Shown: positions 7,095-10,006 of the stretch, in pieces
Layout: each line of letters opens with the position of its first letter
Numbering within the stretch: the first letter of the stretch is position 1
Assembly (NCBI GenBank): GCA_012735145.1
Contig: JAAYIA010000041.1
Location: forward strand, 1 to 47,944
Reading direction: 5' to 3'
Source of the DNA: Clostridiales bacterium
GTDB lineage: Bacteria; Bacillota; Clostridia; Peptostreptococcales; Anaerovoracaceae
DNA length: 47,944 bases
Translations under genes and position numbers: made by a program
The notes under the pieces: generated by a model
The model's database searches: none
What the model was told of the DNA's origin: nothing
Seen by the model: only the letters and a program-made list of their open reading frames with translations

Positions 7095-7913
7095 TTAGAA
7101 GAATGCCTTTACTGAACCTTTATATTTATCCTCGATAAACTTCTTAACTTCGTCTGTTTGGAGTGCACCTACAAGAGCTTTGGTCTTATCTGTTTCTTCA
7201 TTACCTGCTGCAACAGCTATAATATTTACATATGTCTGTGCTGCCTCTGAATCTGTTCCCTCATAAGCTATTGAATCTTCAGCTGTAAGGTCTGCGGAAA
7301 GCGCATAATTACCGTTAATTACTGCAAGACTGAGGTCAGGAAGAGCTGCCGGAATTGTCGCTGCTTCAAGCTCAACAATTTCTATCCCTTTAGGATTCTC
7401 AACAATATCCTCCTTTGTAGCTGTAAGTCCTGCTCCTTCTTTCAGTTTGATAACTCCGTTAGCTGCGAGTAACTGAAGAGCTCTTGCTTCGTTTGTTACA
7501 TCATTAGGAACGCCAACCTTATCTCCTTCTGTCAATTCATCGAAGGTGGCCTTCTGTCCCTTGTATACTCCGAGAGGTTCAAAGTGAATTTTTGCAACCG
7601 ACTTGATATCTGTTTCGTTCTCTTCGTTATATTGCTCAAGATATGGCTCGTGCTGGAAGAAGTTTGCATCGCAGTCTCCGCTTGTCACAGCTTCGTTTGG
7701 CTGTACATAGTCTTCAAATTCGATTACTTCTAATGTCCAACCCTCATCTGCAAGCGTGTCTTTAACTGATTCAAGAATTTCTGCGTGAGGTGTCGGCGAT
7801 GCAGCTACCTTGATTGTCTTATCCTCTGATGATGAGCCTCCACATGCTGTTAACAAAGCGAATGTCAGTGCGAGTATCGCTGCAAGTAGTCCTGTTTTCT
7901 TAATGTTCTTCAT
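7095..7913 (-). CDS. metQ: Methionine ABC transporter substrate-binding lipoprotein (NlpA/MetQ)
   Basis: The extracellular binding component of the MetNIQ importer for L- and D-methionine. A lipoprotein signal peptide with lipobox LLTAC puts the lipidated cysteine at residue 24, followed by a flexible GGSSSEDK linker. Family motifs are KVAASPTPHAEIL, VQPNEAV, DANFFQHEPYL and the C-terminal VKKFIEDKYKGSVKAFF. 272 residues, normal length. GGAGAA precedes the ATG. It is the third gene of metN-metI-metQ, separated from metI by 98 bp. Confidence 0.93.
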   Translation of the reverse strand: MKNIKKTGLLAAILALTFALLTACGGSSSEDKTIKVAASPTPHAEILESVKDTLADEGWTLEVIEFEDYVQPNEAVTSGDCDANFFQHEPYLEQYNEENETDIKSVAKIHFEPLGVYKGQKATFDELTEGDKVGVPNDVTNEARALQLLAANGVIKLKEGAGLTATKEDIVENPKGIEIVELEAATIPAALPDLSLAVINGNYALSADLTAEDSIAYEGTDSEAAQTYVNIIAVAAGNEETDKTKALVGALQTDEVKKFIEDKYKGSVKAFF

Positions 7914-8011: not shown

Positions 8012-8674
8012 CTAGTTAATTCTGTTGTCGAGCTTCGTTGCAATCTTTATTCCGATTTCTTGCATTAACTGAACCAGTATTACCAGCACAACTACGGTAA
8101 TCCACATTATTGCAGGCTGGAATCTGTGAAGTCCATATCTTATAGCAATGCTTCCAAGGCCTCCGCCTCCTATGGCGCCCGCCATAGCCGAATATCCTAG
8201 AATAGTTATTGTAGCAACAGCTCCACCGTTCAGTAGCGAAGGTACTGATTCCGCTATTAGAACTTTCCTGATAATCTGCATATTGCTTGCTCCCATCGCT
8301 TGAGCCGCCTCTACAACACCGGGATCAACTTCCAGAAGAGACTGTTCAACCATTCTTGCTACAAAAGGTGCCGCCGCCACTATCAGGGCTGCCGTTGTGG
8401 CTCCAGTACCGATACCCGTTCCAATCACCTTACGAATGTATGGCATCAAAGCAATCATCAATATCAGGAAAGGTACAGATCTTACAACGTTTACAATAAA
8501 ACCAACAATCTTGTTGTAAATAGGTATAGGCTTGATGCCATTGCTAGATGTAACTATCAAAGACACCCCGATAGGTAATCCTATTATGTATGCGACAAAT
8601 GTTCCTGCCAAAGTCATATACATTGTCTGAAGAAGGCCTTCCCAAAGCATTTTGATAAGAGTTCCTGTATCCAT
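8012..8674 (-). CDS. metI: Methionine ABC transporter permease
   Basis: The membrane subunit of the methionine importer. 220 residues with about five hydrophobic helices. The ABC-permease coupling loop (EAAQAMGASNMQIIRKVLI) docks onto the MetN ATPase. The C-terminal AGAIGGGGLGSIAIRYGLHRF is typical of MetI. It starts 2 bp after the metN stop. Its ribosome binding site GGGAGGGAG overlaps the end of metN, so translation is probably coupled. Confidence 0.95.
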   Translation of the reverse strand: MDTGTLIKMLWEGLLQTMYMTLAGTFVAYIIGLPIGVSLIVTSSNGIKPIPIYNKIVGFIVNVVRSVPFLILMIALMPYIRKVIGTGIGTGATTAALIVAAAPFVARMVEQSLLEVDPGVVEAAQAMGASNMQIIRKVLIAESVPSLLNGGAVATITILGYSAMAGAIGGGGLGSIAIRYGLHRFQPAIMWITVVVLVILVQLMQEIGIKIATKLDNRIN

Positions 8675-8676
8675 TT

Positions 8677-9711
8677 CTATGCTCCCTCCCCTTCTTCTAT
8701 TATTTCTGTAAAATCAACCTCTGCTTTTCTAAGGAACTCTTTCTGTTGTTCCGCCTTCTGGGGATCGTCTGCAAGACATATTACCATCTGGCCCTTTTGC
8801 TGGTCCCCTATCACATCCATGTCTGCATAAAGGAAGTTAACCGGTGCTTGCAATTCCATTATCATTTCGGAAATGATTGGTTCATATGCCGATCTGCCAT
8901 CAAACACGAGTCTCAGCCTATGTCTTGTTGAAGTCTTCCCGCTTGCGAAGACTTCTTTATTTTCTCCGACCGGGAAGAATAGTTTCCTTGCCGCTTGAGT
9001 CTTGGGATATGTGAAGATTTCCTGCACATCACCTCTCTCGACTATTTGACCATTCTCTATAACCGCTACTTTTTTACAAATCTGCTTGATAACCTCCATT
9101 TCGTGAGTAATCACCACTAAGGTTATCCCTCTTTCCTCATTAATCTTCTTGAGCAAGGCAAGAATCGATCTCGTTGTCTTAGGGTCGAGTGCCGATGTTG
9201 CTTCGTCACACAGAATGACTTCCGGATCCGATGCCAAAGCTCTTGCAATAGCGACTCTCTGCTTCTGCCCTCCCGATAATTGTGAAGGGTAGGAGTTTGC
9301 TCTGTCCTCAAGATTGACCACCTTGAGCAGCTCTTTGGCTTTCTTTATAGCTTCTTCCTTAGGATATCCAGCAATCTCAAGTGGAAAACAAATGTTTCCG
9401 ATAGCATCCCTTTGCATGAGCAGGTTGAACTGCTGGAATATCATTGAAATCTTACGTCTACTTAAATTAAGATCATTATTCTTGAGACCTGTAAGAATTT
9501 TTCCATCGAAGAGAACTTTTCCTTCCGTTGGATGCTCGAGCAGGTTTATCGTTCTTACCAGAGTTGATTTGCCTGCACCTGAGAGTCCGATAATTCCGTA
9601 AGAATCTCCGTGGTTGATGTCAAGGTCGATATCCTTAAGCGCTGTTATTTTGCCGTTCTTGGTATCGAATTCCTTACTTACACCCTGCAGACTTATAATG
9701 TGATCGCTCAA
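8677..9711 (-). CDS. metN: Methionine ABC transporter ATP-binding protein
   Basis: The ATPase of the methionine importer, about 345 residues. Visible are Walker A (GLSGAGKST), the Q-loop MIFQQFNLL, the signature LSGGQKQRVAIARAL, Walker B (VILCDEATSALD) and the H-loop VITHEM. A C-terminal NIL domain (about 265-345) acts in family members as the methionine-sensing inhibitory domain. A TTG at 9711 lies 5 bases after a perfect AAAGGAG, whereas the ATGs at 9732 and 9726 lie on or before that site, so the TTG start is preferred. The gene begins right after an attenuator-like terminator, which should set operon expression. Confidence 0.92.
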   Translation of the reverse strand: MSDHIISLQGVSKEFDTKNGKITALKDIDLDINHGDSYGIIGLSGAGKSTLVRTINLLEHPTEGKVLFDGKILTGLKNNDLNLSRRKISMIFQQFNLLMQRDAIGNICFPLEIAGYPKEEAIKKAKELLKVVNLEDRANSYPSQLSGGQKQRVAIARALASDPEVILCDEATSALDPKTTRSILALLKKINEERGITLVVITHEMEVIKQICKKVAVIENGQIVERGDVQEIFTYPKTQAARKLFFPVGENKEVFASGKTSTRHRLRLVFDGRSAYEPIISEMIMELQAPVNFLYADMDVIGDQQKGQMVICLADDPQKAEQQKEFLRKAEVDFTEIIEEGEGA

Positions 9712-9726
9712 TTTTTCTCCTTTCAT

Positions 9727-9764
9727 AAACAAAACGAGGGCACGGTCTCAACAACCTGCCCCCG
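9727..9764 (-). terminator. Putative transcription attenuator in the metNIQ leader
   Basis: On the minus strand, an 8-bp GC-rich stem CGGGGGCA (9757-9764) / TGCCCTCG (9735-9742), with an inner GGT/ACC extension, is followed by TTTTGTTT. It lies between the Met-rich leader ORF and metN, about 57 bp past the leader stop. Upstream GGTCT (about 9811-9815) is complementary to AGACC in the terminator (9745-9749). CAACA in the leader can pair with TGTTG. These are candidate antiterminator partners. Confidence 0.7.
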
Positions 9765-9821
9765 AAAAAATAATCTATCATGAGAAAACTCATAGTGTTG
9801 GCTTCGTTATCAGACCTTATC

Positions 9822-9899
9822 CTATGCTATATCGGCATTGCACATGCGCATGCCCATCATTCCCATGTTCATCATGTTTACATTATAAATAGTAATCAT
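9822..9899 (-). CDS. Methionine-rich leader peptide (25 aa) of the metNIQ operon
   Basis: A short ORF of 25 codons with AAAGGAG 9 bases before its ATG. Eight of 25 residues are Met. Seven of them fall in the 11-residue run MMNMGMMGMRM (residues 9-19), and a Cys follows at residue 20. It lies between a strong promoter and a terminator that immediately precedes metN. This is the layout of ribosome-mediated attenuation leaders such as trpL or hisL. With low charged Met-tRNA the ribosome would stall in the Met run and favour an antiterminator. The link to methionine is inferred from composition plus the downstream genes. A Met-rich metal-binding peptide is the less likely alternative. Confidence 0.75.
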   Translation of the reverse strand: MITIYNVNMMNMGMMGMRMCNADIA

Positions 9900-9937
9900 A
9901 CGGATGTGCTCCTTTCATAGAATAAGTTCTTGGGTAG

Positions 9938-9966
9938 ACTATAACAATATGACATGTGTATGTCAA
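9938..9966 (-). promoter_or_regulatory. metNIQ promoter with overlapping palindromic operator
   Basis: Minus-strand -35 TTGACA (9961-9966), 17-bp spacer, -10 TATAGT (9938-9943). A perfect inverted repeat TGACAT-N4-ATGTCA (9950-9965) covers the -35 and most of the spacer, suggesting a dimeric repressor site. Transcription should start near 9931, just ahead of the leader-peptide ribosome binding site. Confidence 0.75.
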
Positions 9967-9978
9967 CTGAATTTATCG

Positions 9979-10006
9979 AAGTTTTTGTGTATTTAAACAA
10001 AAACTT
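9979..10006 (-). terminator. AT-rich hairpin overlapping the stop of the YcxB-like gene
   Basis: Perfect 10-bp inverted repeat AAGTTTTTGT/ACAAAAACTT (9979-9988, 9997-10006) with an 8-base loop, on the stop codon of the YcxB-like gene. It may act as a weak terminator for that operon. It lacks a clear T tail, so the role is uncertain. Confidence 0.4.

Follow-up and report, generated by a model that had tools for sequence, protein, structure and literature searches.

The methionine importer operon metNIQ of a clostridial genome is preceded by a short ORF rich in methionine codons and by a terminator-like hairpin, and we consider it quite probable, from comparison of this locus with its relatives, that the region acts as a ribosome-mediated transcription attenuator which senses charged Met-tRNA, possibly also Cys-tRNA, and thereby controls metNIQ. 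The window, by which we mean the whole analysed stretch of 47,944 nucleotides, belongs to a Clostridiales bacterium whose genome amounts to 1.13 Mb in 91 contigs and is 83% complete; the nearest MetN among named records, 87% identical, is that of a Mogibacterium MAG (DUVP01000018.1). A preliminary description of the locus had already proposed ribosome-mediated attenuation, and this reading is supported by the recurrence of the leader, by the terminator, by the complementary arms and by the gene context, all of which find support in the comparison of sequences reported here.

The elements lie on the minus strand in the order promoter, arm 1, Shine-Dalgarno (SD) sequence, leader ORF, 57 nt of spacer counted from the leader stop, terminator-like hairpin, metN, metI and metQ. 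The promoter is of the sigma-70 type, TTGACA-17-TATAGT (9938..9966), with TTGACA at 9966-9961 and, after 17 nt, TATAGT at 9943-9938; it has 11 of 12 consensus matches and a TG ahead of the second hexamer, and such a match alone is not significant, one being found against 1.7 +- 1.2 in shuffles. Arm 1 (ACTTATTCTATG, 9916..9927) and the SD sequence AAAGGAG (9909..9915) stand before the leader ORF, MITIYNVNMMNMGMMGMRMCNADIA plus stop (9822..9899), which runs from an ATG at 9899 to a stop at 9822 and carries eight Met in 25 codons, seven of them within a run of 11 residues. Around the leader, arm 1 pairs with arm 2 in a helix that we call H1; the first part of arm 2 (CATAGGATAAG, 9816..9826) overlaps the leader stop and has arm 1 or, via its CATAG, positions 9795-9791 as its partner. 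The 5' arm of the antiterminator (GGTCTGATAACGAAGCC, 9800..9816) can form a duplex with 9760-9744, and the terminator-like hairpin (CGGGGGCAGGTTGTTGAGACCGTGCCCTCG, 9735..9764) has a predicted energy of -18.4 kcal/mol and a tail TTTTGTTTAT at 9734-9725. The promoter, the AAAGGAG and the 25-codon ORF with its Met run were all found in the sequence as first described, and the terminator placed before metN is there as a hairpin with a T-rich tail, although the consensus terminator scan of the window returned no terminator; the stem contains a bulge and the run of T is broken. The stretch 9930-9722 folds more stably than its own shuffles (z -3.19, 0/200). We also observed a small ATGAG-TTTT-CTCAT hairpin that is situated between the leader and the terminator, at 9779-9795 of the window and likewise in many members of the genus, and that competes with the pairing of CATAG and CTATG.

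The operon behind the leader consists of metN (8677..9711, minus strand, with a TTG start at 9711) for the importer ATPase, metI (8012..8674, minus strand) for the permease and metQ (7095..7913, minus strand) for the substrate-binding lipoprotein. Each protein has its own NCBIfam model as best match and falls below the curated cut-off of that model (MetN, TIGR02314, 356 bits, cut-off 499.7; MetI, NF008049, 198 bits, cut-off 212; MetQ, NF008285, 189.8 bits, cut-off 374), and MetI and MetQ pass the Pfam cut-offs of PF00528 and of PF03180 (NlpA lipoprotein, 268.7 bits), respectively.

Methionine genes in Bacillota are generally held to be under SAM riboswitches, T-boxes or proteins. An Rfam scan of the window gave no S-box (RF00162) or T-box (RF00230) at the gathering score, and with E up to 5 the region 9700-9990 returned only an 11-bit snoRNA match, so that the early remark that neither RNA is recognisable at this locus is borne out. 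In the same genome a SAM-I riboswitch (L175; G000:C89:18961-19072, minus strand) precedes metK (TIGR01034, 555.9 bits). S-boxes were detected in 27 of 30 genus genomes, and T-boxes in 22 of 30 at E 0.001 with one over the cut-off. The leader is carried by 19 of the 80 named loci and a T-box or S-box before metN or metQ by nine, and none has both.

Within the genus the leader goes with metN almost throughout. Of 47 genomes of the same genus, 44 have MetN, with 46 copies in all, and a Met-rich leader lies upstream of 45 of these 46 copies, usually in the form MMM-E-MGMMGMCMC with a nearly invariant core MMGMCMC; nearly all genus loci that keep metN have thus kept the ORF and its Met codons as well, a point on which the preliminary description had staked its reading. 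At L212, where 133 bp of upstream sequence are available, the reading frame of the leader is broken, the leader of L220 is cut at the contig start, and that of L233 has no SD sequence. Some genus members were seen to miss single elements though the Met block stays, namely arm 2 in L221 and L228, the 3' half of the terminator in L224, the leader SD and arm 1 in L233 and most of arm 1 in L256, which may be either assembly errors or true losses. A tight DNA pattern for MGM-x-MC matched in 39 of 296 family genomes, and the reversed pattern in one genome among the matches listed; 25 of the 30 family-pattern loci fetched have metN downstream, the others being L032, L045, L052, L053 and L055. The pattern is present in 19 of 21 genus genomes, in single copy in 18 of these. 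An extra place in G265 (L045), considered as a second target in the genus, was treated as chance, because no metN lies behind it.

For the genus alignment, the 46 metN places gave 40 segments, 34 of which were aligned: no segment was obtained from L212, L213, L214, L226 and L257, where the terminator expression did not fit, or from the duplicate L255, and L220 (contig end) and the five segments without an element (L221, L224, L228, L233, L256) were left unaligned. Over the 34 sequences H1 has 96.0% of its cells paired, as high as in none of 500 shuffles, and slid versions reach at most 66%. The remaining measures are weaker: two H1 cells have both sides changed, matched by 15 of 500 shuffles, and the number of pairs with both sides changed is reached by 123/500 shuffles and the covariation score by 96/500. 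In L215 a C-G replaces the usual U-A of H1; in L003, L253 and L260, which are more divergent genus members with Met block and terminator kept, H1 is not formed. The antiterminator helix of GGTC-TAACG with CGTTA-GACC has 94.1% of its cells paired in the genus, a level from which slid versions, with no more than 51%, stay far away; its pairing is reached by 157 of 500 shuffles, with no covariation beyond them, because the helix hardly varies. The comparison within the genus upholds one half of what had been suggested for it, the conservation of Met-codon runs, but not the covariation of the antiterminator arms. It also adds a feature that the preliminary description did not contain: the antiterminator arm begins within the stop codon region, continues beyond it and adjoins H1, the last base of the H1 3' arm being next to the first base of the antiterminator arm when H1 forms without its outermost pair.

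Regarding the competing pairings that had been put forward, their fates differ. CATAG at the stop and CTATG (9791..9795, minus strand) can pair in 34/34 aligned genus sequences, with three combinations of pair types. GGTCT and AGACC are present inside a longer duplex, but the antiterminator pairing of the window alone is not above shuffles (z -1.13, p 0.14). As for GGCAT/ATGCC, the window has the required ATGCC downstream of the Met run, whereas inspection shows it replaced in the other rows of the genus alignment, and this pairing was dropped, as it is not kept in relatives.

A terminator-like hairpin between leader and first gene is found at 54 of 55 leader loci, with T-rich tails of varying quality; at 13 loci it was set by hand, automatic selection having given no hairpin or a badly positioned one, and L069 has lost the 3' half of its terminator. 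For the pairing test L069 was left out, and a stretch that starts where the Met block ends and extends 40 nt beyond the stop was paired with the terminator and compared with dinucleotide shuffles of that stretch. Outside the genus (n=34) the mean z is -1.62 with a standard error of 0.25, optimistic since the rows are partly related, and 12 loci have p<0.05 and 17 have p<0.1. The corresponding mean z for the genus is -2.09 (n=20). The non-genus controls gave mean z values of -0.30 for the 5' UTR, 0.04 for the Met block, -0.26 for the region past the terminator and -0.20 for the reversed stretch, with 3, 5, 2 and 3 of 34, respectively, at p<0.05. Good single cases are L022, L146, L148, L151, L161, L162 and L115. 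A simulation of co-transcriptional folding, done at equilibrium with masked ribosome footprints, did not separate the stalled and stop states in the genus; with the RNA 5 nt short, at least 2 bp more terminator formed with the ribosome at the stop in 9 of 34 non-genus loci (the opposite in 3/34) and in 2 of 20 genus loci (the opposite in 3/20).

Beyond the genus the leader is patchy, because many relatives do not have it, so that the expectation that relatives with metN keep the leader holds in the genus (45/46) but not among many loci outside it. The leader scan required five or more Met within 14 residues together with an SD sequence, up to 1.6 kb upstream of metN; sense-strand matches without SD (L015/L106, L116, L128 and a second ORF in L065) were excluded from the leader count, and the weaker candidates L125 and L151 were counted. 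An antisense control scan with the same Met threshold returned only the reverse complements of the leaders themselves (window, L320). Among the other metN-like loci of the family that have 200 bp or more of upstream sequence, 13 of 38 carry a leader, a count that leaves out the genus loci and L018, L030 and L083 (under 100 bp upstream). Of the named non-genus loci, 16 of 77 carry one; L114, with 2 bp upstream, is among these 77, and the family and named sets partly overlap, L099 and L017 being the same contig. Named carriers include Lacrimispora celerecrescens, a Hungatella MAG, a Christensenella MAG and Firmicutes bacterium CAG:103. In an even class sample, one of 39 further metN loci has a leader. 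Leaders before metQ-first operons were possibly missed at L071-L082, since only 264 to 807 bp are present there. A MetN tree built with FastTree from 161 rows, 40 of them leader rows, requires at least 22 state changes, a number in which gain and loss are indistinguishable and sub-threshold leaders are scored absent. A looser pattern of SD plus MMM matched in 78 of 296 genomes, many of the matches not being leaders; 12 regions fetched from it comprised the new leaders L235 and L236, the genus leader L240, the metF leader L246 and eight without a leader. With a phylum-wide pattern in 398 genomes, no leader was seen among the 30 loci examined, more than 100 other places being listed. Met/Cys-rich proteins of 70-74 aa (e.g. 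MDKMCMEMMMNMCMDDMMSKMNCMKMGME...) were observed at L265 (1510-1732), L268 (minus strand) and L269 (1513-1726), in three genomes of one large-genome family, and are not metN leaders.

The genes behind the leaders serve the amino acid enriched in them, being metN, MetQ-type genes and, once, metF. In G147 (L246, G147:C15) the leader MSLINLSLAMMMGMMMCMAMYGMCMFSRVLIRNGFSSHKAAL and a terminator lie ahead of metF (TIGR00676, 311.7 bits, over cut-off), and this is the only target found other than metNIQ. We rejected metF as a common target, with a leader at one of 30 family metF loci; L321, the metF copy nearest to the leader-bearing one, has just 67 bp of upstream sequence. Eight leader loci have a MetQ-type gene in first position, with PF03180 in 8/8 (L022, L029, L065, L066, L148, L153, L161, L162). 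A separate observation is that MetQ is seemingly circularly permuted in seven of these eight operons, L022 having the usual order: a signal peptide is followed by a part matching about 130-268 of the window MetQ and then by a part matching about 32-127 (L029:540-1394, L065:719-1642, L066:1390-2241, L148:588-1439, L153:452-1372, L161:567-1418, L162:497-1369). A literature search on MetQ circular permutation found no paper combining all three terms.

The composition of the leaders brought an unexpected element, absent from the preliminary description, in that cysteine accompanies methionine. In a set of 31 representative leaders, Met accounts for 57% and Cys for 11% of the block residues, and each of the 31 has a Cys within the block or directly after it; before the block Cys makes up 1 of 176 residues, and the ratio of TGC to TGT is 47:8 (30 representatives). 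Across lineages the Met/Cys content is kept and the order and spacing are not, and the leader length ranges from 19 to 43 residues at 55 loci, with 49 in L292. For the window and its genus an RNA reason for Cys is possible, because ATGTGC can pair there with GCACAT near the SD sequence.

The last Met of the block stands 6 to 19 codons before the stop (30 representatives), and therefore a ribosome early in the block would free the stop region and a ribosome at the stop would cover it. We infer from this layout a sequence of events which begins with translation of the leader. When methionine is ample, the ribosome would reach the leader stop and mask the antiterminator arm that overlaps or abuts it, whereupon the terminator would form and the importer would be off. 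When Met-tRNA is short, the ribosome would stall in the Met block and leave the antiterminator arm free, and this arm could pair with the terminator sequence during its transcription, so that RNA polymerase would continue into metNIQ; a dependence on methionine supply, and whatever part Cys may play, likewise belong to this inferred scheme. A wider form of it, to which we give only tentative credence, is a dual Met/Cys attenuator in which stalling at either codon would turn on methionine uptake and, in contrast to the trp attenuator, an untranslated leader would also be read through. Since shortage of Met also starves initiation, only completed translation of the leader should then give the OFF state, and the genus H1 and the antiterminator helix, which meet at neighbouring bases, might stack on each other and so bias the RNA towards ON when no ribosome is present.

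Three other explanations were weighed. The nearly invariant MMGMCMC of the genus goes beyond what codon sensing needs and might point to nascent-peptide arrest, in which a MGM-x-MC peptide in the exit tunnel would stall the ribosome on methionine, SAM or another ligand; arrest peptides normally retain a defined sequence, however, and with Met/Cys content kept across lineages but order and spacing not, we regard this as unlikely. The same lack of conserved residue order weighs against a functional Met/Cys-rich mini-protein, for instance a metal-binding one or an oxidant sink, that would merely share the metNIQ transcript. The 70-74 aa proteins at L265, L268 and L269 show that small proteins of such composition exist elsewhere in the phylum, yet the leaders have the shorter lengths given above and precede metN, metQ or metF with an intervening terminator and complementary arms, and of all the readings considered we give this one the least credit.

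An RNA element that binds a metabolite or tRNA, such as a variant riboswitch or T-box not recognised as such, with the ORF incidental to it, would account for the conservation of the leader-enclosing H1 in most of the genus and for the leader and terminator fold that outdoes its shuffles. Against it stand the single 11-bit Rfam match in 9700-9990 at E up to 5, the absence of H1 from three divergent genus members that keep Met block and terminator, and the fact that what the families share is a Met/Cys-rich ORF with a terminator; we therefore hold it to be very improbable. If attenuation by a translating ribosome is true, the recurrent Met/Cys leader would be a further RNA strategy for methionine genes in Bacillota, and one genome would split its control, with the SAM level acting on metK through the S-box and charged tRNA acting on uptake. 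A Met attenuator would also be a testable model, because Met starvation weakens initiation on its own leader, unlike the case of Trp or His, and the leaders might help to predict how metNIQ is controlled in Clostridia that have not been cultured.

The classical ribosome-mediated attenuators are the trp, his, leu, ilv, thr and phe leaders; the lineage of the window usually uses S-box and T-box RNAs for such control, unlike the classical case. The leader of the window differs from those leaders in its Met codon combined with Cys and in that the antiterminator arm of its genus overlaps and follows the stop. SAM-I riboswitches (RF00162) and T-boxes (RF00230) precede metN or metQ in other Clostridia analysed here, and neither scores at the window locus. 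The likeness of the classical attenuators to the locus lies in a short ORF with a run of regulatory codons, a terminator, an antiterminator (here a putative one) that competes with it and genes for the same amino acid (PMC1262725). Leader-peptide attenuation in Firmicutes appears in the His leader peptides before hisS/hisZ in bacilli, which there replace T-boxes and differ from the leader of the window in having His rather than Met and other genes (PMC2965389). For the Cys of the leader there are two comparisons: uORFC-8-2 of Rhodobacterales, a Cys-codon uORF before the Cys-tRNA gene cysS (PMC8632094), and the cys operon leaders of Mycobacterium, Cys-codon uORFs before sulfur genes which, unlike the locus described here, are without terminators (PMC1262725); in those portions of the two papers no Met run is mentioned for either, and both concern other genes and phyla (PMC8632094, PMC1262725). 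The nearest published case that we found is metL of Streptomyces lividans TK24, for which a role as leader of metNIQ has been proposed (PMC8079986). Compared by composition, metL resembles the leader of the window in its metNIQ operon and in a peptide, MSTTSDRTPATEATTTPGARCMCRRMCAF, that mixes Met with Cys; it differs in having two Met besides the start and no dense run, a leaderless start, another phylum and, by its authors' account there, no typical terminator (PMC8079986). The preliminary remark that no such Met leader had been described in Clostridia agrees with the open-access literature, where we recognised none, most subscription journals lying outside that body.
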